A stretch of DNA of 64,000 nt from contig NZ_CP061281.1 in assembly GCF_014621695.1 (NCBI RefSeq), positions 2,480,001 to 2,544,000 on the forward strand. The letters are read 5' to 3'. Within the stretch, counting starts at the first letter, position 1. The number at the start of each line of letters is the position of its first letter. The stretch is from Streptomyces xanthii (GTDB lineage: Bacteria; Actinomycetota; Actinomycetes; Streptomycetales; Streptomycetaceae). This document shows positions 52,009 through 64,000 of this stretch, in pieces. The notes beneath the pieces were generated by a model. That model was not told where the DNA came from. It worked only from the letters and a program-made list of their open reading frames with translations, and ran no database searches. A program made the position numbers and the translations under genes.

Positions 52009-54966
52009 CTAGACCGGCTGGGGTTCGAAGTCCCAGTACGGGCGCTGGCGGCGGCGGACGCTGACGGTGTGGGGGTGCTGGTCGCCCAGTGTCTCGGCGA
52101 GCACCCGGATCACTTCCTGCTCCTTCTCCCCCGCTTCCTTTCCGCGCCGCAGCAGGCGCAGGTCGGTGGCGTGGGCCGCCCAGGCGGAGAGGGTCAGGGG
52201 GTGCCGGGACCCCAGCACCGCCTCGGCACCGGTGGCGGCCTCCAGACTCAGCTCGGCGGCACCGTCGACGTCACCGGCCAGGGCGCGGGCGCCGGAGGTG
52301 TTGAGCGCCGAGCCCACCGTCCACGGGTGCCGCTCCCCCATGGCGACCCGCATCCGGGACAGGGCTCGCTCGGACAGATGCAGCGACTCGTCCCGCTCGC
52401 CGAACTCGGCCAGTACGAGGGCCAGGTTGCCGGAGACTCCGGCGGAGAACGGGTGCCCGTCGCCGAGCAGGGTGGTGTGGCCGGCCGCGGCGCGCTCGGC
52501 GAGTTCCCTGGCTCGGCCCGGGTCTCCGTGCGAGCGCTGGAGAGTGGCGTAGTCGGCGAGAACGGCGAGCGTGTCCGGGTGTTCGGGGCCGTGGACCTGT
52601 TCGGAGCGGACAAGGACGGTCTGCATCAGGGAATCGGCCTGCTGGTACTCGCCTGAGCGGCGCAGACAGAGCGCGAGGTTGTGCTCGGCACGGAGGGTCT
52701 GGGGGTGGTGCAGATCCATGATCTGGTGATGCAGACCCACAGTTTTCTTCTGACGGTCCAACGCCTCTGCGTAGCGTCCCAGCCAGCGCATCAGGCTGGC
52801 GCAGATGGTGCCGCTCTCCAGCGTCGCCGGGTGGCGAAGCTTGAGAACGCGCTCGCGGGCCTGCAACACGGCAAGGTCCAGCTCCAGGGAGTCCTTGTAG
52901 TGCCCCAACTGGGCCAGGACCGCAGAGTAGTTGTGCTGCTGATCGAGAGTGTGCGGGTGCTGCTCGCCGAGGATGTCGCGATAGGCGTCCCACACCTCCT
53001 TGAAGAGGTCGCGCGCCTCTCCGTACGCGGCGAGCGCCCACAAGGATCCACCCAATCCCTGCTTGGCGAGGAGGAGTTCACTGCTGTCGGGTGCGTGCTC
53101 CTGCAAGAGCGCCACGGAGTTGCGTCCCGCGGCCTCTGCCTCGCGGTAGCGGCCGACCCTGCGCAGCATGATCGCGTGGTAGTAGTCGAGCAGCAGCAGG
53201 CTTCGGTCGGTCCGTTGGAAGCGCTGCTGCCAGCGCGGCAGGGCCTTCTGGATCAGCTCGAGCCCGGCCGAGTACTCACCGCGTACGCGCAGGTAGTTGA
53301 TGCAGTCCAGGATCAGAGACTGGACGTCGCGGTCGCCGCTGTCGAAGACTCCGGCGTGGTCGAGGTGCGGGATGATCTGGGCGTACCGCTCCCACAGGCG
53401 GGTGTCGTTGGGGTTGCGCGGTGATGCGCTGACCAGGACCCGGCAGGCTGCGGAGGCGGCCTGTTCCCGCTCGGACTCGGGCATACCGGTGCGCAGGTAG
53501 CTGTGGTACAGGTGGTGCATCTGGACGCTCTCGACGCCCTGATCGACCCGCGTCTCCGAGGCTGGGTAGTCCATGCGCATGACCGCGGTCGCCTCGTTGA
53601 GCCGGCGCAGGTTGGTGTGCCAGCCGATGGGGTCGGCGGTGAGGGTTTCCAGGTGCGCGGGCAGGTCGCCGGGGCGGGCTGACTGGATCAGACCGACCGG
53701 GATGGCGTCCGGGGAGAAGAAGCCGAAGATCTTGAGGAGTTCGGCCGCGTCGGGGTGCTTCTCGCGCAGCATGTTCTGGGTGAGGGACCAGCTGGTCCAG
53801 ACGCTCTTCTGATAGTCGTCGTCGACGAAGCTGAGCCCGAACTCGTTGGGCCGACCGCTGAGGATGCTGTCGATGTACGGCTCGACGGGCATCGTCTCGT
53901 TGATGGCGAGCCAGGACGCCGTCTGGTTGACGAGGAGCGGAAGGTCCTGCACCGCGGCGGCCAGGGAGTCGGCCTGCTCCGTGGTCAGGCGTGGCGCACG
54001 GCGGCAGGCGAAGGCGACGCTCTCCCGCCGGGTGAAGGGGTGTACCTCGATCTCCTGGGTGCGGCTGAAGGCCGACCAGTCCCGGGTGAGCGTGGTGATG
54101 AGGACGTGTCCCGGTCCGTCGGGAAGCAGGTTCTCGATGCCGTCCACGTTGTCGGCGCCATCGAAAATGAGCAGCCAGTTCCGGTACGGGGTGCCGCTGC
54201 GCAGGGCGCTCTGGACCGCGCGGATCCGGTCACCGGTCTCACGGCCTGCGGGAAGCTTGAGCCGGGTGGCGAGTTCGGCGAGCTGCTCACGCGCGGTGCC
54301 CGGGTAGCCGGAGTTGACCTGCCAGACGATGTCGTACTCGTTGCGGAAGCGGTACGCGTACTCGCGGCCGATCTGGGTCTTGCCGACCCCTGAGATGCCG
54401 CGCAGAACGCAGCGCTCGCCCTCGCTGTCAAGGAAGACCGAGTGGATGCGTTCGAGGATCTCGTCGCGGCCGGTGAAGCGCTCGTTGCGGGGCGGGACGT
54501 TCCACTGGGCCTGGTCGTCGTTGGGGAAGCGGGGGCCGCCGTCCGACTCCTCGGTTGCGCGCGGCCGGTCGATGCCGACCCTGCGCATCAGGCGGCGGCC
54601 GGCCTCCCGGGCGCTGAGGCCGAGCAGGCTGACGGGGGCGAGGGCCGCGGTGGCGGCGGGCAGGGCGCCGTTGGCGATGTTGACGGCGATGAAGCGGTCG
54701 GAGTGCGCCGTGACCACTTCACGCAGGGCCTCCGTCCACTCCCCCGCTGGTCGCGGTCCGAGCCCGAAGTACCAGTCGTCGAGTACGAGCAGAACCCTGC
54801 CCGGCGCCTCGAGCAGACCGGTGAGTGCATCGACCAGAGACGTCTCCAGCTCGGGATCCCAGCGCAGCATCGCAGTCCCGATGCCTTCCCGCTCGAGCTG
54901 ATGCGCGATCCAGGCCGCCCAGGGACGGCTGGATCCGGCGTGACTGATGGTGATGAACTCGGCCAT
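52009..54966 (-). CDS. fxsT: TIR-NB-TPR protein of the FxSxx/cyclophane RiPP system (FxsT-like)
   Basis: 985 residues from MAEFITISHAGSSRPWAAW, GGGAG 8 nt upstream. The N-terminal 125 residues are a TIR-like domain; a linker with NVPPRNERFTGRDEIL leads to an NB-ARC/STAND ATPase with P-loop GISGVGKT (190-197) and LLIFDGADN. From about residue 560 to the end are tetratricopeptide repeats with the HPxTL pattern (GEQHPHTLDQQHN). The C-terminus RPYWDFEPQPV is characteristic of this group. FxsT proteins accompany FxSxx precursor and FxsB maturase genes; whether it senses, guides or is an effector is not known. It is last in the transcription order, 139 nt after the radical SAM gene. Confidence 0.88.
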   Translation of the reverse strand: MAEFITISHAGSSRPWAAWIAHQLEREGIGTAMLRWDPELETSLVDALTGLLEAPGRVLLVLDDWYFGLGPRPAGEWTEALREVVTAHSDRFIAVNIANGALPAATAALAPVSLLGLSAREAGRRLMRRVGIDRPRATEESDGGPRFPNDDQAQWNVPPRNERFTGRDEILERIHSVFLDSEGERCVLRGISGVGKTQIGREYAYRFRNEYDIVWQVNSGYPGTAREQLAELATRLKLPAGRETGDRIRAVQSALRSGTPYRNWLLIFDGADNVDGIENLLPDGPGHVLITTLTRDWSAFSRTQEIEVHPFTRRESVAFACRRAPRLTTEQADSLAAAVQDLPLLVNQTASWLAINETMPVEPYIDSILSGRPNEFGLSFVDDDYQKSVWTSWSLTQNMLREKHPDAAELLKIFGFFSPDAIPVGLIQSARPGDLPAHLETLTADPIGWHTNLRRLNEATAVMRMDYPASETRVDQGVESVQMHHLYHSYLRTGMPESEREQAASAACRVLVSASPRNPNDTRLWERYAQIIPHLDHAGVFDSGDRDVQSLILDCINYLRVRGEYSAGLELIQKALPRWQQRFQRTDRSLLLLDYYHAIMLRRVGRYREAEAAGRNSVALLQEHAPDSSELLLAKQGLGGSLWALAAYGEARDLFKEVWDAYRDILGEQHPHTLDQQHNYSAVLAQLGHYKDSLELDLAVLQARERVLKLRHPATLESGTICASLMRWLGRYAEALDRQKKTVGLHHQIMDLHHPQTLRAEHNLALCLRRSGEYQQADSLMQTVLVRSEQVHGPEHPDTLAVLADYATLQRSHGDPGRARELAERAAAGHTTLLGDGHPFSAGVSGNLALVLAEFGERDESLHLSERALSRMRVAMGERHPWTVGSALNTSGARALAGDVDGAAELSLEAATGAEAVLGSRHPLTLSAWAAHATDLRLLRRGKEAGEKEQEVIRVLAETLGDQHPHTVSVRRRQRPYWDFEPQPV

Positions 54967-55091: not shown

Positions 55092-55108
55092 TAGGCCGGA
55101 AAGGCCTA
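55092..55108 (-). promoter_or_regulatory. Stem-loop at the stop of the radical SAM gene
   Basis: TAGGCC-GGAAA-GGCCTA is a perfect 6-bp hairpin that includes the TAG stop. Too short for a confident terminator; it may slow transcription or protect the message end. The remaining 125 nt before the FxsT-like gene could hold a promoter (GAATTA as a -10), which is not certain. Confidence 0.35.
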
Positions 55109-56359
55109 GGGCGACGTACCGATCTCGGCCAGCAGTCGGGTCGAGATGTGGCGTATGAGGCGGGCCATGTCGGCGCAGTAGACCGTGGGATGACGGAATC
55201 CGCTGTGGGCGAGGTAGCGATGGGCGTAGTTGCCACCGCCGCAGACATCCACCAGCGGGCAGGAGCGACACTCACCGCTCAGGGCGTCACGGCCCAGATG
55301 GCGGGCTGCGACCCCCGGGTGCTCCAGCGCCTCGTCGAAGCTGTTGCGGTGGACGTCCAAGCCCGTGACAGGGGCTCCCTCGTACGTGGTCTTGAGGGAG
55401 TCGACCTGTTCGATCGCCCCGTCTGTGTCCACGACGACCGCGGCGACCGGTGAGAGGCCCACCACCTCGGTGGCGCTGGGCTGTCCGAGCAGCAACGCGA
55501 TGATCTCGGCGAACAGCCGGACCCGCACGGTCGGACCCCGGTGCTCCCACCACAGATCGAAGGTCCGGGAGAGCCAGTCCCCGTACGGGGTGGGTCTGCG
55601 GTGGGGGAAGCGCAGCGTTCCGGGGTCGGCCGGCGCGACACCCGTCGGCGGGGTGGTCCAGTTGTTGTGGGGCAGCAACAGGTCGAGGCCGGGCGGGTCC
55701 ATCGCCAGGAGCGAGCTCAGCACGTCTTCCGGATCGTTGCCCAGATCGATCGTGCACAGGATCCCGGCGAAGACGTCGGGGTGGTCCGCCAGCAGTCTGG
55801 CCGCGCGAAGGGCCGCGGGCCAGGAGGCTCGGCCTCCTTTAAAGGCACGAAGCCGATTGTGTTGCGCGGTGCCGCCGTCGAGGCTCAGGCCTACGCGGAT
55901 GCCCGCCGCGCCCAGCTCGGCTAGGACGGCTCGGGTCAGGAGTGTTCCGTTGGTCTGGACTCCGGCCTCGACACGGCACCCCGGGGGCGCCAGTTCACGC
56001 ACGGCGTCCACATAGCGCACCAGCGGTGCGGCGCCCCCGAGCAGCGGCTCGCCGCCGTGCAGGTCGACTCGGACTAAGGGCAGTCGATGGGTGCGGGCGT
56101 GCTCGGCGATCCGCTCAGCCGTGCGCTTCATGATCGCGTCCGAAACGCGTGTGGGGCGGTCCCGCCAACTGCTGTCCGCGCCCTCGTAGATGTAGCAGTA
56201 CGAGCAGGCGAGGTTGCAGCGGCTGTGCACCTTCAGGACGAACTGGCGGAACGGCACGGGCGCGATGCCGGCGCGACGTAGGGCCGGAACATCCAGGTCC
56301 CGAAGCGGCCAAGGGGCCGGCAAATCTGTCCGCGGCCCGTGCAGATCACCGGTGCTCAC
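55106..56359 (-). CDS. FxsB-family radical SAM/SPASM cyclophane-forming peptide maturase
   Basis: 417 residues from a GTG that overlaps the precursor stop by 14 nt. The radical SAM cluster motif is CNLACSYC with C48, C52 and C55, preceded by FVLKVHSRC, the typical opening of the FxsB group, and followed by VDLHGGEPLL. The C-terminus has a reduced SPASM region, CRSCPLVDVCGGGNYAHRY, for a second 4Fe-4S cluster. Members link an aromatic side chain to a residue two positions on, making a three-residue cyclophane. A TTA leucine codon at 56075-56077 makes translation dependent on bldA tRNA. An alternative start at 56395 exists. Confidence 0.88.
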   Translation of the reverse strand: MSTGDLHGPRTDLPAPWPLRDLDVPALRRAGIAPVPFRQFVLKVHSRCNLACSYCYIYEGADSSWRDRPTRVSDAIMKRTAERIAEHARTHRLPLVRVDLHGGEPLLGGAAPLVRYVDAVRELAPPGCRVEAGVQTNGTLLTRAVLAELGAAGIRVGLSLDGGTAQHNRLRAFKGGRASWPAALRAARLLADHPDVFAGILCTIDLGNDPEDVLSSLLAMDPPGLDLLLPHNNWTTPPTGVAPADPGTLRFPHRRPTPYGDWLSRTFDLWWEHRGPTVRVRLFAEIIALLLGQPSATEVVGLSPVAAVVVDTDGAIEQVDSLKTTYEGAPVTGLDVHRNSFDEALEHPGVAARHLGRDALSGECRSCPLVDVCGGGNYAHRYLAHSGFRHPTVYCADMARLIRHISTRLLAEIGTSP

Positions 56360-56726
56360 GCCGAGTCCCGACCGCCGACGGCGGAGAAGGAGCACTGTCC
56401 CCGTACACCGCGACCGTCCGCTCCACGCTTCTCGGCCGCGCGATCAGCCCGTCGAGCACAGTCGCCAGGACGGGGTGATCGCTGCGCCGCCGCAGGTCAG
56501 CCAGACCGAGGCCCGTGAAGTCCGGGAGGGTCTCGCCCGTAGCGGGGTCGTCCGCGGCGTCCATGTAGACCGCGACGGTCTGCTCCGCGACCCTGGGCCG
56601 CGCGATCAGCCCTTCGATCACCGCCCCCAGCACCGGATGATCGCTCCGCCCCCGCAGCTCCGCCAGGTCCAGCCCCGCGTAATCCGGCAGGGACCCACTG
56701 GGCTCGCTCGCGGCCGGGCTCAGCAC
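56346..56726 (-). CDS. RiPP precursor candidate with two tandem YxD cores
   Basis: 126 residues from a GTG 4 nt after GAGGAGG. Two homologous units with a 54-residue period run from L13 and L67: LPDYAGLDLAELRGRSDHPVL... then RPRVAEQTVAVYMDA, and LPDFTGLGLADLRRRSDHPVL... then RPRSVERTVAVYGDS. In FxSxx precursors the PDL-helix leader is followed by VAxFxSS at the C-terminus; here the corresponding place is AVYMD (Y54-D56) and AVYGD (Y108-D110). The two YxD triads are the likely cyclophane sites. The tail after residue 113 is Pro/Ser/Arg-rich. Role and modification are inferred. Confidence 0.75.
   Translation of the reverse strand: MLSPAASEPSGSLPDYAGLDLAELRGRSDHPVLGAVIEGLIARPRVAEQTVAVYMDAADDPATGETLPDFTGLGLADLRRRSDHPVLATVLDGLIARPRSVERTVAVYGDSAPSPPSAVGTRREHR
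56385..56528 (-). repeat. Second 54-residue unit of the precursor
   Basis: Encodes residues 67-114, homologous to the unit at 56547-56690, with core YGD at residues 108-110. Confidence 0.85.
56547..56690 (-). repeat. First 54-residue unit of the precursor
   Basis: Encodes residues 13-60, with core YMD at residues 54-56. The two units differ at about a third of positions, so the duplication is not recent. Confidence 0.85.
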
Positions 56727-56793: not shown

Positions 56794-59700
56794 TCACTGC
56801 GTGCCGTCCAGCCGCCGGATCCGGTCATCCGTGCGACGCACCTCGGTCGGGTCGGCCCCCGGGGTGCGGGCCCAGCGTTCGCGGGCCGCGCGGTAGAGGG
56901 CCAGGGCGCGGGTGGGGCCGGCGAGGAACTCCAGGACCTCGGCGCGGCCGTGCAGGGCCCGCGCCGCGGTGCGGGGATCGCGGGCTGCCTCGGCCTCCTG
57001 GGCGGCGCGCGCGTACGCCTCGTCGGCCCGGACCCACTCCTCGCGCTCCCGGGTGTGCCGGGCCAGGAGCCCGTGCAGGCCTCCGAGTTCGAGCCAGGCG
57101 GCGGCGCGCAGGGCCGGCACCTCGGTGTCCCTCAGTGCCTGGTCGAGGGTCCAGCAGGCCTCGTACAGGTCGGCGATCATGGATTCCGCGCCGTAGCGCC
57201 GGCGCAGGGCGGCCGCCAGCAGGAGGCGGCGTTCCACGGCCGAGGGATGGCTCGGCGCGGTGTCGGCCACGGCCTCGCGCAGGCTGTTGACCGCTTCGGA
57301 GACCCGGTTGGGGTCCTCGGACTCGTCGTGGGCGCGCTGGGACTCCAGCAGCATCTGCCCGTACGAGACGAGCAGCTCGGCTCGCTGGGGGTCGCCCGGT
57401 CGTAACAGACTCAGTGCCCGCTTCATCTCCGCCTCGGCCGCGTCGGTGTCCGCCTGGTCGCTGTCACTGTCTCTGTCGCTGTTCCACATCAGCAGTGCGA
57501 GTCGTCCGCGCGCCGCGGCCTCGAGCGGGGTGTCGCTCTCGGTCCGTGCCGCGTCGGCGGCTCGCTTCAAGACTGCCCTCTCTGACTCCGATGCGAACGG
57601 AGCATCGCTCAGCGCATGTGAGGTCGCCAGGTCGAGGAGGACCCGGGCGAGGGGATTTGCCGCGCCGTCCGCGCCCCCGACGCGCTCCACTCCCGCGGTG
57701 AGCGCCGCCGCCGCCCGCATCGCGAGACGGCGCCGTTCCGCGGAGTCGGGGAGGGCGTGCAGGGCGCATCGGAGCAGGGCGCGGCCGAGGGCGAACCAGA
57801 GTTCGGCGGGTGGGCTGCCGTCCGGCCAGCGCTCGGTGAGGCGGCTCAGGACGCGGACGGAACGGTCGAGGTGGGTGAGGTCGTCGTCGGGCGAGCGGTC
57901 GAGGCGGCTGTCGACGACGGCGGTGTGGAGCACGGCGCAGGACAGGCGGGTGGCGGCGGTCAGGCCCGGAAGGTAGAGGGCGAGTTCGAGCTGGGCCAGG
58001 GCCTCGTCGACGAGGTGCTCCCCGTGCTCCCGCAGCTCGGTGGACTCGGGCGGGCGGCGGCGTGCGGCCTCCGCGATCCGTTCCTCGCCCCGGGTCCGCA
58101 GCACGCGGGCGAGCGCGATGCGGGCCGCGCCGAGGGCCTCGGGGTCGGGTTCGGTCCGGGCGACGAGGGTGTCGACCTCGCGGCGGGCGACGTCCTCGGC
58201 CTCGGCGAGGCGGCGCGGGTCGCGCCATTGCTGCCAGGCGTGCAGCAGGGCGCGGGCGTAGAGGCGGCCGCCGTCGGGGTGGCCGGTGGCGCGGGGGGTG
58301 CGCAGCAGGCGCAGGGCTTCGAGGAGGTCGTCGGCGCCGCCGTCGCTCTCGTAGCGGCGCAGGCGCTGTTCGGCGGCGCGCAGCGGGTGGCCGGGCAGTT
58401 CGAGGGCGCCGGGGAGTTCGGCGAGGCCGCGTTCGAAGTGGCGCAGGACGAGGTCGGAGACGGTGGCGAAGGGTTCGGGGACGCTGCCGGTGCCGCCGGT
58501 GGGGCGGCGTCCGGTGCCTTCGAGGTAGGCGACGACGGCGGCCGGGTAGTTGCGGGCGGCGCGGCCGAAGGTGCGTTCGATGTAGAGGGCGCAGTGTTTG
58601 AGGACGAGGGCGGCCTCGCCGGCGCTGAGCCGCTTCAGGAGCAGGGCGCGGACGCGGGGCTTGAAGTCGAACCAGGGGCCGGTGCGGGCCTCCTGCTCGC
58701 GGCCGGGCCCGTCGCCGGGCGGGCGCTGGGTGACGAGGCCGCCGAGGAGCACCTCGGCGAGTTCGGCGGGGCCGGTGCCGGGCTGCATGGTGCGCTGGAC
58801 CAGCCGCATGACGGGCAGGGCGAGGGGGGCGGCGGCGAGGTGGACGGCGAGGTCGCGGGCGGTGGGCGAGGCGGTCTCGTCGAACTCCACGAGCAGCCGC
58901 TCGGCCTCGTCCTCCTCGTGACCGCCGGCGTCCGTGTCCGGTACGGGGATCCGGGCGGCGCCGTCGAGCGGTGCGGCGGCGCCGCGCAGTCGCAGTCCGC
59001 TCTCGGCCGCGACGAGCCGCGACCAGGTGCCGAGTGCGGCGGGCGTGGGCGTCAGGACGGGGACGTAGGGTCCGGCCACCGTCCTCGCGCCTCGCCTCAG
59101 CTCCCTGAACTCCAGCTGGCTGTACGGGCCTTGGCGGCGGGTGAGGGTTCCGGTGCGGGCGGGCAGGGCGGTGCGCTGCCAGAAGCGCTGGGGCAGGGGC
59201 TGGAGCACGGCGAGCGGAGCGCCGGTGACCCAGCCGCGCAGCAGACGCTGGAAGGTGCCGTCGCGCCACAGTGGCCCGGTGCAGTCGCTGAGCAGCAGGT
59301 GGACGCGCTGCCCCGAGGGGTCGGTGACCTCCTGGGCGGGGCGCAGGACGTGGCCGAGTCCCGGGCGGGCGGTGACGCCGAGGCCGGCGCCGAGCGGGTG
59401 CAGGTACTGCACGACGACGTCGCGGAAGGCGCCGACCTGGACGCAGGCGCGGCGCAGGTCGGCGAGGAGTCCGTCCCAGACGGCCATGGCGGGGGCGCCG
59501 TCCATGAGCAGGACGAGGTCGGCGGTGCGGCGTCGTACGGGCCTGCGGACGGGGCTCAACAGGCCGACGGTAGCGGTGAGTTCGGCGGTGGCGGTCTCGT
59601 CGAGCTCGCTGGGCGCGAAGAGGCCGGGCGGCCGGTAGGCGCGCAGGGGGCGCAGGGCGCGGCGCAGCGCGGGCAGGGCGGGGAGCCCGGACACGGCGGC

Positions 59701-60378
59701 GGCGCGGGGTGCGGCGCCGGCGGGGGCCGGGTCGGGTGCGGCCGGGCGCAGTTCGGCGAGGGTGACGGGGGCGGGCCGCGGGGCGGTCGCGGGCGGGTCC
59801 GCGGATTTGGCCGGATCCGACCGGTGCGGAGGGGGTGCCTCCGGCCGGGCGGGGGGTTCGGCGTCCGGTTCGGGGCCGCTCGGGGCGGGGGCGGAGGGCC
59901 GGGGTCCGGTGCGGGACCGGGCCGTGCCGGCGGTCCACCGGGCGAGCCAGAGGGCGTCGGCGAGCTCCCGGGTGTCGAGCGGGGTGCCGGCCTCGGCGAG
60001 GGCGCGGACGAGGCGGGTCACGGGGTCGGGGGCGTGCACGCCCGGGGTCCCCCGGCCAGGGGTCGCCGGGGCGGGAGCCGGCGAGCCGGGCGTCGCCGCC
60101 CGGCCAGGGGCCGCCCGGCCAGGGGTCGCCCGATCAGAGACCTCCCGATCCCGATCAGAGACCTCCCGATCCGGATCAGAGACCTCCCGGTCGGAGACCT
60201 CCTGATCAGGAGCCCGCGAGCCGGAGACCTCCCGACCCAAGCCCTCCGGATCAGGCACTGGCGAGCCTGAGCCCTCCCGGCCCGGACCCTCCGGATCAGG
60301 CACTGGCGGGGCCGGGGCCTCGCGGTCCGGAGTCCCCGGGTCGGGAACGTGCGGGTCGGGAAGCTCGGGAGCGGGCAC
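56794..60378 (-). CDS. SAV_2336-type vWA protein of a ternary conflict system
   Basis: 1194 residues from a GTG 4 nt after the AAA gene. Residues 1-105 are a Pro/Asp/Arg low-complexity region with DREVSD repeats. Residues about 119-150 (TRLVRALAEAGTPLDTRELADALWLARW) are the SAV_2336 N-terminal motif. A vWA-like domain starts near 285 (RRRTADLVLLMDGAPAMAVWDGLL); its metal site is DGAPA, lacking the usual DxSxS. The second half is helical, TPR-like. In vWA-MoxR systems the vWA protein connects ATPase and effector. A TTA codon at 57403-57405 is in frame (codon 992). Confidence 0.8.
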   Translation of the reverse strand: MPAPELPDPHVPDPGTPDREAPAPPVPDPEGPGREGSGSPVPDPEGLGREVSGSRAPDQEVSDREVSDPDREVSDRDREVSDRATPGRAAPGRAATPGSPAPAPATPGRGTPGVHAPDPVTRLVRALAEAGTPLDTRELADALWLARWTAGTARSRTGPRPSAPAPSGPEPDAEPPARPEAPPPHRSDPAKSADPPATAPRPAPVTLAELRPAAPDPAPAGAAPRAAAVSGLPALPALRRALRPLRAYRPPGLFAPSELDETATAELTATVGLLSPVRRPVRRRTADLVLLMDGAPAMAVWDGLLADLRRACVQVGAFRDVVVQYLHPLGAGLGVTARPGLGHVLRPAQEVTDPSGQRVHLLLSDCTGPLWRDGTFQRLLRGWVTGAPLAVLQPLPQRFWQRTALPARTGTLTRRQGPYSQLEFRELRRGARTVAGPYVPVLTPTPAALGTWSRLVAAESGLRLRGAAAPLDGAARIPVPDTDAGGHEEDEAERLLVEFDETASPTARDLAVHLAAAPLALPVMRLVQRTMQPGTGPAELAEVLLGGLVTQRPPGDGPGREQEARTGPWFDFKPRVRALLLKRLSAGEAALVLKHCALYIERTFGRAARNYPAAVVAYLEGTGRRPTGGTGSVPEPFATVSDLVLRHFERGLAELPGALELPGHPLRAAEQRLRRYESDGGADDLLEALRLLRTPRATGHPDGGRLYARALLHAWQQWRDPRRLAEAEDVARREVDTLVARTEPDPEALGAARIALARVLRTRGEERIAEAARRRPPESTELREHGEHLVDEALAQLELALYLPGLTAATRLSCAVLHTAVVDSRLDRSPDDDLTHLDRSVRVLSRLTERWPDGSPPAELWFALGRALLRCALHALPDSAERRRLAMRAAAALTAGVERVGGADGAANPLARVLLDLATSHALSDAPFASESERAVLKRAADAARTESDTPLEAAARGRLALLMWNSDRDSDSDQADTDAAEAEMKRALSLLRPGDPQRAELLVSYGQMLLESQRAHDESEDPNRVSEAVNSLREAVADTAPSHPSAVERRLLLAAALRRRYGAESMIADLYEACWTLDQALRDTEVPALRAAAWLELGGLHGLLARHTREREEWVRADEAYARAAQEAEAARDPRTAARALHGRAEVLEFLAGPTRALALYRAARERWARTPGADPTEVRRTDDRIRRLDGTQ
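60132..60194 (-). repeat. Three tandem 21-nt units in the N-terminal part of the SAV_2336 gene
   Basis: Units at 60132-60152, 60153-60173 and 60174-60194 share GATCAGAGACCTCCCG. They encode the DREVSD repeats. Unit length is divisible by three, so copy number changes keep the frame. Confidence 0.9.
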
Positions 60379-60382
60379 CCGG

Positions 60383-61399
60383 TCACCGCGTCCGGTCGAG
60401 GGGCCGCATCAGTTCGCCCGACAGGCGGGCGCGCGCGGCGCTGTCCGTGTCCCAGCCCGTCTGGCGCACCAGGTGGATGGCGTTGAGCAGCTGGTCGACG
60501 GCGAGCACGTCACCGGGGTCGCGGTCGAGGAACTGGTCGATGAGCGCGGCGTGTTCGTCGTCGGCGCCCTCTCCGAAGTGGGCGCGGACCATGCCCGCGA
60601 GCCGTTCGGCGTCGGGCGGGGTCATCTCCAGCTGGATGCAGCGGCGGCGCAGCGGAGCGGGGAAGTCGCGTTCCCCGTTGCTCGTCAGGACGATGAACGG
60701 GAAGGCCCGGCAGCGCACCCGGCCGTGATGGACCGTCACCTTGGCGCCGTCGTGGGTGAGGACCTCGACGTCCGGGGCGACGTCCGCGATCCGCTCCAGC
60801 TCGGGGATGGTGAACTCGCCCTCCTCCAGCACGTTGAGCAGGTCGTTCGGCAGGTCGATGTCGCTCTTGTCGAGCTCGTCGACGAGCAGGACGCGCGGGC
60901 GGTCGTAGGCGAGCAGCGCGGTGCCGAGCGGGCCGAGCCGGATGTAGCGTCCGACGTCCGCGATACCGGCGGCGCTGTCCTCGCCGAGCGCGGTGCGGAT
61001 CTGCAGGTCCTGGAGGCGGCCGATGGCGTCGTACTGGTAGAGCCCCTCGCGCAGGATGCTGCGGCTGACGACCGGCCAGGTGAGGACCCGGCCGAGCTTC
61101 AGCTCGTACGCGACGGAGTGCGCGATGGTCGATTTGCCGCTGCCGGGCTGCCCGGTGACGAGGAGCGGTCTGCGCAGGTAGAGCGCGGCGTTGACCAGTT
61201 CGCGCTCCTCCGCGCCCGGCCGGTGCATCTGCGCCTGGCGGCTGCGCACCCCGAGCCGGCGGACCGAGGCGCTGTCCAGCTCGCCGGGCGAGGCGAGCGC
61301 GGGGGCGCCGTCGAAATCGCGCCAGGGCGGCGGTGGGGGCAGCCGCTCGATGTCGTCGTGCGGGGCTCCGGCGCCCCGGTAGATCAGCCACTCGCTCAT
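60383..61399 (-). CDS. MoxR-like AAA ATPase of the conflict system
   Basis: 338 residues. Walker A is GQPGSGKS (83-90), Walker B VLLVDELDKSD, sensor 1 VLTSNGERDFP, arginine finger region LRRRCIQLEMTPPD. The layout is MoxR-like: it is followed by a vWA protein, its usual partner. In the vWA-MoxR-VMAP ternary systems the ATPase is thought to remodel or license the effector. Start MSEWLIYRGAGAPH; the 85 nt before it contain no gene. Confidence 0.92.
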   Translation of the reverse strand: MSEWLIYRGAGAPHDDIERLPPPPPWRDFDGAPALASPGELDSASVRRLGVRSRQAQMHRPGAEERELVNAALYLRRPLLVTGQPGSGKSTIAHSVAYELKLGRVLTWPVVSRSILREGLYQYDAIGRLQDLQIRTALGEDSAAGIADVGRYIRLGPLGTALLAYDRPRVLLVDELDKSDIDLPNDLLNVLEEGEFTIPELERIADVAPDVEVLTHDGAKVTVHHGRVRCRAFPFIVLTSNGERDFPAPLRRRCIQLEMTPPDAERLAGMVRAHFGEGADDEHAALIDQFLDRDPGDVLAVDQLLNAIHLVRQTGWDTDSAARARLSGELMRPLDRTR

Positions 61400-61484: not shown

Positions 61485-63605
61485 CTACGGAGGCGGTTCG
61501 AAGGGCCGGGCCGAGGCGGTGGGCAGGGGGTGGTCCGGGCTGTCGTAGAAGAGGATCAGGCCGCGCAGCCAGTCCGTGCCGGACGCGCCGCTGCGGAGTT
61601 TCCACAGGCGGCCGGGCAGGGTGCGGACGGATTCGCCGGGGCGGTCGAGGAGGGTGGTGACGCCCTCGTGGAAGCCGTCGCAGGCGTCGCCGCAGCCGTC
61701 CTCGTCCCCGTGTCCGTCGGCCCGCCACAGGGCGACCGGGTAGCCCAGGCCGACCGCGCGCTGGACCGCGACGTGGCCGGAGCCCGCCGTCACGCGCTGG
61801 CACAGCACCGGGACCGAGTCGTGCGGGGCGCTCTTCAGCTGGGCGCGCCGCAGCGGGGCCGGCGGGCCCGCGGGGCGCAGCAGCCGCAGCCGCTCGGCCC
61901 GGTGCAGTCCGCGCCAGCGGGCGCGCCACTGTTCGGCGACGTCGGCGGCGTCGACCAGCTGGGCGCGGCGCTCGATGTCGCGCAGCATCACGGGCCGGTC
62001 GATGCCCATGGGGCTGTGCGGCGCGCTGGGCCGGGCGTCCTCCCGTATCTCCCACTCGGCGACGGCGGCGGCGAACTCGGTGCCGGGCAGGGCCACTTCG
62101 AGGGGTACGGGATCGTCGTCGGCCCGGGTCGCGTCGGCGGCCTCCAGGACGCCGACGAGTGCGTCGAGCGCGCTCTCGCGGGCCTGCGCGAAGGGCTGTC
62201 CGTCGGTGGGCGGCGTCCGGGCGAGCTCCCAGCGGCCGTCCTCGTAGCCCTTGTAGAGGGACCAGACGTACTGCTGCACCTCCTCCTCGCCCTCGTCGAA
62301 GTACGGGGTGGAGGGGGCGTGGTCGAACTCCAGGAGGACGGCGCGCGGGCGCGGGCGCAGGGTGCCGAGCTGTCCGCGCTGCTTGGCGTCCAGGGCGTGG
62401 CCGCGCTTCATGACGGACTCGTAGAGCTCACGCGCGCGTGCCGCCGCCTCCGGTTCGGCGGAGTGCTTGGAGATCCACTTCGCCACGAGGACGAGGTAGC
62501 TGAGGTGGACGGCGAGGTCGCCCTCGCCGCCGAAGCCGTGCAGCATGCCGAGTCCGTCGCGCCAGCCGACGGGGGCGACGGAGTGGGCCACGGTCCGGTC
62601 CAGGGCCTCGGCCGCGAGTTCGCGCACGGTCGCGGAGGTGCTGGGCGGGGGCATCGCGCCGAGCTGGTGCAGGGCCTCCAGGCGGTCGAGCACGCCCCAG
62701 GAGCCGCGCCGCCTGGGCAGGGCGCGCTGGGCGTCGACCCAGGTGGGTTCGCCGTTGCCGTGCTCGGGGTGCTGGCGGTGCCAGTGCCAGTCGTCGTGGC
62801 GCCGCATCAGCTCCTCGTACGGGTCGGGGCCGAGGTCGGGGGCGCCGTCGAGGTGCGCGGCGGCGGTCAGCGCGCGCAGGCCGCTCACGGCGACGGCGAT
62901 CCCGGAGCCGCCTTCGCGGAAGCGCGCCTTGACGACACCGACGATCTCGCCGCGCTCCAGGTCGACGAGCGGCCCGCCGGAGGTGCCGGGGCGCATGTCG
63001 GCCCGCAGCTCGAACTTGATCCGGGTGCCGGTCGTGCCGCCGTAGCCGCAGGAGAGGCTCTCGGGTTCGCTGTGGCCGGGCACGCCGGAGGGGTGCGCGA
63101 AGCGGCCGACGATGCCGCCGCTGCCGAACTCGCCCGGCGGCCGGTCGGTGAGCCACGCGCAGCGCTCCCGGTCCATCGGGTCGAGCAGGGCGACCAGCGC
63201 CAGGTCCGGGCCGCTCCTGTCGGTGGCCGGGGCCGCCATGTCGGCCTCGGACACGAGGAGGTCGGTGGCGCTGTCGGGGCCGTGCGGGCCGGAGCGGGCG
63301 GCCCGGGGCAGCGGCATGGAGTACGCGACCCGGCCGCGCAGCACCCGTCCGTCCACGTAGACGCCGACGTCGGTGCCGTCGGGGCGCACGGCGCGGCGGG
63401 CCCGCCGCCCCGGCCCGTCGACCAGCACGTGCGCGCAGGTCAGCACCCAGCCGGGGGCCACGAGGAAGCCGCTGCCCCACAGGGCGCGCGAGCCGCGCTG
63501 GGCGACGATCGGCAATCCGTCGTCGGAGGGTGGCGGAGCCCCGAGCCCTACGGTCGCCTCCTCGGTCAGCTGCCACAGCTCTCCGCGGTCCGGAGGGGTC
63601 GCCAT
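61485..63605 (-). CDS. Trypsin-like serine protease, VMAP type
   Basis: 706 residues from an ATG overlapping the stop of the gene before it (ATGA). The N-terminal chymotrypsin-fold protease has the triad H59 (GWVLTCAHV), D134 (PDLALVAL) and S209 (RPGTSGGPLVD); no signal peptide, so it acts in the cytoplasm. The last 450 residues fit the VMAP middle and C-terminal regions (SYLVLVAKWISKHSAEPEAAARARELY, LLEFDHAPS). In the vWA-MoxR-VMAP systems such a protease is the presumed effector, released on signal. Confidence 0.85.
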   Translation of the reverse strand: MATPPDRGELWQLTEEATVGLGAPPPSDDGLPIVAQRGSRALWGSGFLVAPGWVLTCAHVLVDGPGRRARRAVRPDGTDVGVYVDGRVLRGRVAYSMPLPRAARSGPHGPDSATDLLVSEADMAAPATDRSGPDLALVALLDPMDRERCAWLTDRPPGEFGSGGIVGRFAHPSGVPGHSEPESLSCGYGGTTGTRIKFELRADMRPGTSGGPLVDLERGEIVGVVKARFREGGSGIAVAVSGLRALTAAAHLDGAPDLGPDPYEELMRRHDDWHWHRQHPEHGNGEPTWVDAQRALPRRRGSWGVLDRLEALHQLGAMPPPSTSATVRELAAEALDRTVAHSVAPVGWRDGLGMLHGFGGEGDLAVHLSYLVLVAKWISKHSAEPEAAARARELYESVMKRGHALDAKQRGQLGTLRPRPRAVLLEFDHAPSTPYFDEGEEEVQQYVWSLYKGYEDGRWELARTPPTDGQPFAQARESALDALVGVLEAADATRADDDPVPLEVALPGTEFAAAVAEWEIREDARPSAPHSPMGIDRPVMLRDIERRAQLVDAADVAEQWRARWRGLHRAERLRLLRPAGPPAPLRRAQLKSAPHDSVPVLCQRVTAGSGHVAVQRAVGLGYPVALWRADGHGDEDGCGDACDGFHEGVTTLLDRPGESVRTLPGRLWKLRSGASGTDWLRGLILFYDSPDHPLPTASARPFEPPP

Positions 63606-64000
63606 CAGGCCCCGGCCCGGCTGTCGCCTTCCTCGGCACCGTCGCCCGGGGCGGGGCCCGGCACGGGTGCCGGGCCCGCGTCGGTGTCGGCGGCGGCGCG
63701 GCGGGCGGCCCGGCGGTCGGCGTGGTGCCAGGTCAGGGTGATCGACAGATTGGCCTTCGCCTCGCCGTCGGCGAGCACCGCGACGGCCTTGCCCGGCTTG
63801 GCGCTGACCTCGATGCCGAACGTCACCGCGGTCTCGTCCGGCGCGACCGCGGCCGTGGCCGTACGGACCGAGCGGGCGACGCCCTCGACGGTCTCCTTGA
63901 GGCCCTCGACGCGGGTGACCACGTTCTCCCACAGGCCGACGTCCTCGTAGAGGTCGTCGTAGTCGTCCTGCCCGCCGAGGCGCGGCAGGTTCGAGGCCCG
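63605..64000 (-). CDS. CU044_2847-family protein, C-terminal part (cut by window edge)
   Basis: 131 codons lie in the window and the frame is open to the right edge. The sequence ETAVTFGIEVSAKPGKAVAVLADGEAKANLSITLTWHH is the C-terminal strand pattern of CU044_2847 proteins, which occur next to VMAP-type proteases. The upstream part here (DDYDDLYEDVGLWENVVTRVEGLKETVEGVARSV) differs from the shorter family members. The tail after that is Pro/Ala/Gly-rich. It overlaps the protease gene (ATGA). Confidence 0.75.
   Translation of the reverse strand, partial: RASNLPRLGGQDDYDDLYEDVGLWENVVTRVEGLKETVEGVARSVRTATAAVAPDETAVTFGIEVSAKPGKAVAVLADGEAKANLSITLTWHHADRRAARRAAADTDAGPAPVPGPAPGDGAEEGDSRAGA

Follow-up and report, generated by a model that had tools for sequence, protein, structure and literature searches.

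Introduction

The link formed by YxdB, according to the review PMC11002830, joins C3 of Tyr to Cbeta of Asp. A family of 'YxD-tail cyclophane-containing RiPP peptides' is described by the NCBIfam model NF041709. The FxSxx-COOH peptides (TIGR04268) and their FxsB maturases (TIGR04269) are also known. For the VMAP/FxSxx operons, section 24 of PMC7159879 predicts that the peptide is likely a toxin or a signal amplifying the conflict system; the same source treats a metallopeptidase-like gene of these operons as a protease, and we assume that the gene meant there is the HExxH-type one covered by TIGR04267. Among the works cited by PMC12636437 is one whose title describes ChlB as a 'multiple cyclophane synthase'.

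Here, a locus from Streptomyces xanthii is described in which a precursor assigned to the YxD-tail family carries its entire leader and core twice. The stretch of DNA analyzed, hereafter the window, comprises 64,000 nucleotides (NZ_CP061281.1, positions 2,480,001 to 2,544,000), and coordinates are given as positions within it unless stated otherwise.

Precursor Gene and Its Family

The precursor gene (56346..56726, minus strand) encodes a protein of 126 aa; it starts with a GTG at 56726, with the sequence GAGGAG located five bases 5' of it, and its stop lies at 56346. As proposed in the first-pass annotation, which was made from the letters alone, the protein contains two homologous units with a period of 54 residues; they start at residues 13 and 67. 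Unit 1 (residues 13–59; 56550..56690, minus strand) and unit 2 (residues 67–113; 56388..56528, minus strand) are each composed of a predicted leader hairpin followed by a core, which is TVAVYMD in the former and TVAVYGD in the latter, so that the YxD motifs are YMD at residues 54–56 and YGD at residues 108–110. The units are identical at 32/47 amino acid and 104/141 nucleotide positions, and the nucleotide differences are distributed over codon positions 1, 2 and 3 as 8, 9 and 20, respectively. The C-terminus of the protein is REHR, with FxS absent; the Asp of unit 2 is found 16 residues before the end (compared to 19 residues after the Asp in the precursor of locus L034, the nearest relative by maturase), while unit 1 is internal. 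An AlphaFold2 model of the precursor, of moderate quality by mean pLDDT (72) and of low quality by pTM (0.32), shows two helices per unit (residues 21–27/31–42 and 75–81/85–96) and leaves the cores outside helix or strand. The fold search with this precursor yielded nothing useful (one match, E-value 8).

The NF041709 model matches the precursor in two stretches with a score of 102.1 bits against a cut-off of 55. Since a whole-genome search with NF041709 also recovers each unit by itself (56.4 bits, E-value 2.7e-14, and 53.4 bits, E-value 2.4e-13), the two-unit structure is not due to chance; both matches in the genome of origin lie at this locus, and no other was present among the best 150 of 215 candidates. 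An origin of the duplication as an assembly artefact or a recent copy was considered and rejected, given that the units are 68% identical at the protein level and that the layout is shared by P0004, a two-unit homolog from another Streptomyces. Membership in the FxSxx-COOH family was likewise rejected (TIGR04268, 20.7 bits against a cut-off of 28, with the C-terminal FxS missing).

Judged by these sequence comparisons, the precursor belongs to the YxD-tail family already described and is not a deviant FxSxx precursor. The first-pass annotation had presented it as a new departure from FxSxx in which Phe and Ser give way to Tyr and Asp; FxSxx was not the right family for this comparison, given that one with YxD had been defined before, and the Tyr-Asp chemistry proposed for the precursor is already known, as the review reports the YxdB link (PMC11002830). 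The sequence data do support the two leader–core units of that annotation and its placing of the probable crosslink at Tyr-x-Asp. A different FxS precursor elsewhere in the genome, named in that annotation as evidence that would speak against it, was looked for, and no FxSxx match at an E-value ≤ 1e-6 was obtained among the best 23 of 448 candidates.

Maturase

The maturase gene adjoining the precursor (55106..56395, minus strand) overlaps it by 50 bp if translation starts at 56395, and by 14 bp if it starts at the alternative GTG at 56359, which is judged the likelier of the two; the overlap, the coordinates of the locus and the FxsB type of the enzyme had been given correctly in the first-pass annotation. 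The product scores 432.2 bits against the FxsB model (TIGR04269; cut-off, 370), while those of YhhB (NF041707; 326.4 bits vs. 445) and AmcB (NF041718; 76.2 bits vs. 425) remain below their cut-offs. Cysteines C60, C64 and C67 (CxxxCxxC), as well as C376, C379, C385 and C407, are kept in 59/59 rows of the alignment. The genome of origin contains one FxsB above the family cut-off, the second match (29 bits) being far below it. The closest solved sequence is the radical SAM domain of ChlB (258 bits), and the closest solved fold to the maturase model is that of ChlB bound to the leader of its precursor, with 36% identity and a TM score, taken by target length, of 0.92. PADLOC analysis gave partial matches only, the strongest of which, pVip with 42 bits, falls on the radical SAM core of the maturase, and none was taken as a system.

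In a rapidly built phylogeny of 59 maturases with SH-aLRT as the sole support measure, 48 sequences, including that from the window, form a starred clade. Relatives of the maturase had been suggested as a check on its partner, and 47 of the 48 clade members are found beside a [YHF]xD precursor, not an FxS one; L039 is the sole member for which no [YHF]xD unit was detected. The nearest relative, L034, shares 79–80% identity with the maturase studied here, and its precursor has one unit with the core AYGD. Of the 11 maturases outside this clade, only those of L070 and L074 were seen, on visual inspection, to be accompanied by small FxS/WxS ORFs. Based on the family model, the cysteines, the clade and the fold, the enzyme is assigned to the FxsB-family radical SAM/SPASM maturases, YxdB-like clade.

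Operon and Gene Order

All of the operon genes in the window, from that for the Trypco1 domain protein through that for the TIR/AAA/TPR protein, are found on the minus strand. The TIR/AAA (AP-ATPase/STAND-like)/TPR protein (52009..54966) is of the FxSxx-system TPR type (NF040586, 769 bits vs. 300), with TIR_2, AAA_22 and TPR_12 above their cut-offs; its start at 54966 was judged by eye from the sequence, within an ORF that reaches 55275. On the other side of the precursor lie genes for a SAV_2336 N-terminal domain-related protein (56794..60378, ORF as listed; NF041121, 406 bits vs. 200), a MoxR-like AAA+ ATPase (60383..61399; AAA_5, 33.4 bits vs. 22), a trypsin-like peptidase fused to VMAP-C (61485..63605; PF20028, 102.5 bits vs. 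27; PF13365, 47.7 bits vs. 27.6), in which the triad of His, Asp and Ser is present by eye, and a Trypco1 domain protein (PF19493, 66.6 bits vs. 24.6), which runs from 63605 to 64000 and past the window end (L097:5606-6055). By comparison with PMC7159879, the SAV_2336-type protein would be a vWA/TPR partner; its vWA domain is presumptive, since Pfam gives no match. Upstream of the Trypco1 gene there is an ORF of 284 residues without a Pfam or NCBIfam match (L097:6602-7456, minus strand), which may be either a further operon part or a chance ORF. An HExxH-type gene was searched for with TIGR04267 in the genome of origin and none was found (0/1). Apart from this gene, the VMAP/MoxR/TIR-STAND operon is, in gene content and arrangement, of the FxSxx type published in PMC7159879.

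Gene order was compared in 39 precursor loci, consisting of 35 out of 49 related loci, L093, L095 and L096, and the window. In 39/39 loci, the precursor gene is followed on the same strand by the maturase gene and then by the TIR/STAND/TPR gene, and the SAV_2336 protein is encoded upstream in at least 38/39. The MoxR gene is located inside the examined stretch in at least 31/39 loci and a trypsin-VMAP relative is visible in at least 29/39, these counts being lower bounds because the flanks were limited to ~7 kb. In 8/39 loci (L040, L041, L044, L047, L055, L056, L093 and L095), a second precursor–maturase pair is found 3' of the TIR gene. In L047, L055, L056 and L093, one of the two precursors is of the HxD and the other of the YxD kind.

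Conservation of Cores and Leaders

In total, 81 distinct YxD-type units were drawn from the loci and from the protein search described below. Among the 43 distinct single-copy units, the Asp of the core is present in 43/43, a count that is partly circular because the profile used to find them was itself made from units of this kind, and position i is occupied by Y in 34, H in 7 and F in 2. In P0013 (Streptomyces sp. NPDC048483), the core reads YYEA, and the otherwise constant Asp is lost.

The two units of the window precursor differ from each other at 1/14 family-conserved vs. 14/33 variable columns (Fisher test with columns treated as independent, p 0.02), and both of them therefore look constrained. 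The same comparison is not significant for P0004 (p 0.24) and L093 (p 1.0).

Several features common in the family are missing from the window precursor, and an internal core like that of unit 1 is rare among its members; both points weigh against the reading that each unit is a substrate. An aromatic residue at D-3, observed in 63/81 distinct units, is missing from both window cores, which are also without the usual acid at D-1; Pro at D+2, found in 38/43 single-copy units, is missing from both units, and the leader Asp at column 9 (32/38) from unit 2. Across the units, Glu or Asp at D-1 occurs in 62/63 of those with the D-3 aromatic vs. 10/18 of those without it (Fisher p 1e-5, relatedness not controlled). 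With both residues in place, typical cores contain two overlapping aromatic–acid i,i+2 pairs, whereas the window cores contain one; judged by the motif, the two pairs of typical cores could allow a second or an alternative ring.

Distribution and Origin of the Doubling

Precursors with two units are rare. Of the precursors in related loci, 2/48 are of this kind, namely those of the window and L093, and 46/48 have one unit. In a survey of the genus, matches at an E-value ≤ 1e-8 were obtained in 31/392 genomes, and two same-frame matches within 200 bases in 2/392, the genome of origin and G068, which carries L093 (best ~17 candidates per genome in both counts). An earlier draw of 295 genus genomes had given the same two doubled cases. 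At the level of the phylum, 3/396 genomes matched, all three from the same genus. When the whole precursor was compared with 100 relatives, 14 matched, and the only full-length match was that of the window itself. Plasmids gave no match. No tandem FxSxx precursors were seen by eye among the matches listed for 97/295 genomes (best ~23 candidates per genome), and no tandem YxD precursor was noticed in the literature at the level of titles and abstract openings, a depth that does not establish absence from print.

A protein search with alignment identified 63 proteins among the best 7999 candidates, 15 of which were read as FxSxx type. Within the remaining 48, two leader–core units are present in P0003, the window's own precursor, and in P0004, and one leader followed by two cores in P0006 (FDD and YDD; TVAMFDD..TVAMYDD) and P0033 (YDD twice; TVAYYDD..TVARYDD), again among the best 7999 candidates. 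The repeats in P0006 and P0033 suggest, by their sequence, that the smallest core spans some seven residues. PF27839 of Pfam is listed for P0003–P0006 in the protein database; the Pfam scan of the window precursor was without such a match.

The doublings of the window and L093 are placed in different starred parts of the tree, each beside single-unit relatives, so that they represent separate events. P0004, on the other hand, probably shares the duplication event of the window, to judge from a unit comparison of 50 columns with mostly weak support. P0005 has one unit and a doubled-type N-terminus, its unit being most like the second of P0004; on sequence, it may represent either a contracted tandem or the state preceding the tandem.

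Proposed Mechanism and Alternatives

Based on the gene anatomy, the family membership, the motifs retained and the conserved operon, it is probable that the gene encodes a doubled YxD-tail triceptide precursor, that one maturase closes a ring in each unit, and that the chain or its peptides serve the conflict operon. The leader–core unit would have been duplicated within a YxD-tail precursor gene, and the adjacent YxdB-like maturase would bind each leader hairpin and, in the core that comes after it, link Tyr(i) with Asp(i+2). The predicted product is a single chain with two three-residue cyclophanes (Y54–D56 and Y108–D110), each formed with a loss of ~2 Da. The modified chain, or peptides cut from it, may act as a signal or an effector for the VMAP/MoxR/TIR-STAND operon, and the trypsin-VMAP protein of the operon is the candidate protease for any cleavage. 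Both units carry YxD or HxD in the two lineages with a doubling, i.e., the window with P0004, and L093/G068.

The same rings but another product would result if each unit were modified and then excised, releasing two separate cyclophane peptides in the manner of multicore microviridin precursors. We regard this as a serious possibility, though one that falls somewhat short of even likelihood. A trypsin-like VMAP protein is present within the operon, multicore RiPP precursors are known (PMC5934393), and the second precursor–maturase pair in 8/39 loci, one of which, L093, also has a doubled precursor, suggests that two products may be wanted; however, no obvious cleavage site is common to both units (TVA is preceded by Q in the first and by R in the second), the genome of origin gives no TIGR04267 match, and the protease role of the trypsin-VMAP protein is suggested by its position only.

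It is unlikely that the C-terminal unit is the only true substrate, with unit 1 a relic or an extra leader. The cores of single-unit relatives are situated near the C-terminus, and P0005, with its doubled-type N-terminus, indicates that one unit can suffice. Nevertheless, unit 1 retains the leader positions and YxD, and at the one conserved column where the window units differ, it is unit 2, not unit 1, that deviates from the family; moreover, unit 1 of P0004 retains YDD, and L093 retains HED in both units. The formation of some other bond, either an ether or a link between another residue pair, with the cores being minimal, is improbable: radical SAM maturases make varied links (according to the review PMC11002830) and the window cores contain neither the aromatic at D-3 nor the acid at D-1 that are common in the family, but in the absence of the former Tyr(i)–Asp(i+2) is the sole aromatic–acid i,i+2 pair of each window core, and the Asp is kept in all of the single-copy units.

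Within the preferred reading of two rings on one chain, a more speculative variant, which we rate as a long shot, is that the uncut doubled chain is an intracellular bivalent ligand, a tunable trigger of the conflict system and not a secreted product, which might, for example, bring together a pair of TIR/STAND/TPR receptors or of vWA partners. If this were true, the doubling of units, the doubling of cores (P0006, P0033) and the second pairs (8/39) would be different routes to two rings in one chain or one cell. L093, which combines a doubled precursor with a second pair, runs counter to a simple choice of one route or another.

The locus offers two matched substrates of one maturase on one chain, in which the order of modification, leader dependence and processing are testable together, and the repeated doubling of cores provides a natural comparison in which the same operon can be studied with one ring or with two. 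In the literature examined (PMC7159879, in its section on these operons), the role of the VMAP/FxSxx operon peptides is a matter of prediction.

Comparison with Known Systems

Like the YxD-tail peptides with YxdB (NF041709), the window precursor combines leader and YxD core and has an FxsB-family maturase next to it; unlike most of them, it has the whole unit twice, with one core internal. With the FxSxx-COOH/VMAP-ternary systems (TIGR04268/TIGR04269, NF040586; PMC7159879), the locus shares the FxsB-family maturase and a separate TIR/STAND/TPR gene, and with the VMAP-ternary systems as outlined in PMC7159879 also the trypsin-VMAP-C, MoxR, Trypco and SAV_2336 proteins in one operon, whereas its peptide is of the YxD type and its genome yielded no HExxH-type gene with TIGR04267. 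ChlB (PDB 9gm3, 9gmc) is the closest solved enzyme in both sequence and fold, but the identity to the maturase is 36%, and PDB sequence searches with YxD precursors returned no ChlA-like chain among chains of at least 20 residues. The microviridin pair AMdnA/AMdnC, as described in PMC5934393, resembles the present one, as proposed here, in that a single enzyme serves several cores per precursor, although AMdnC is an ATP-grasp enzyme that makes another linkage. Multi-ring chains are already known in the wider group, to judge from the title on ChlB, and precursors with several cores are known from other RiPPs (PMC5934393). The family, the proposed chemistry and the operon type are also known, and what is unusual in the window is the tandem layout of leader and core.
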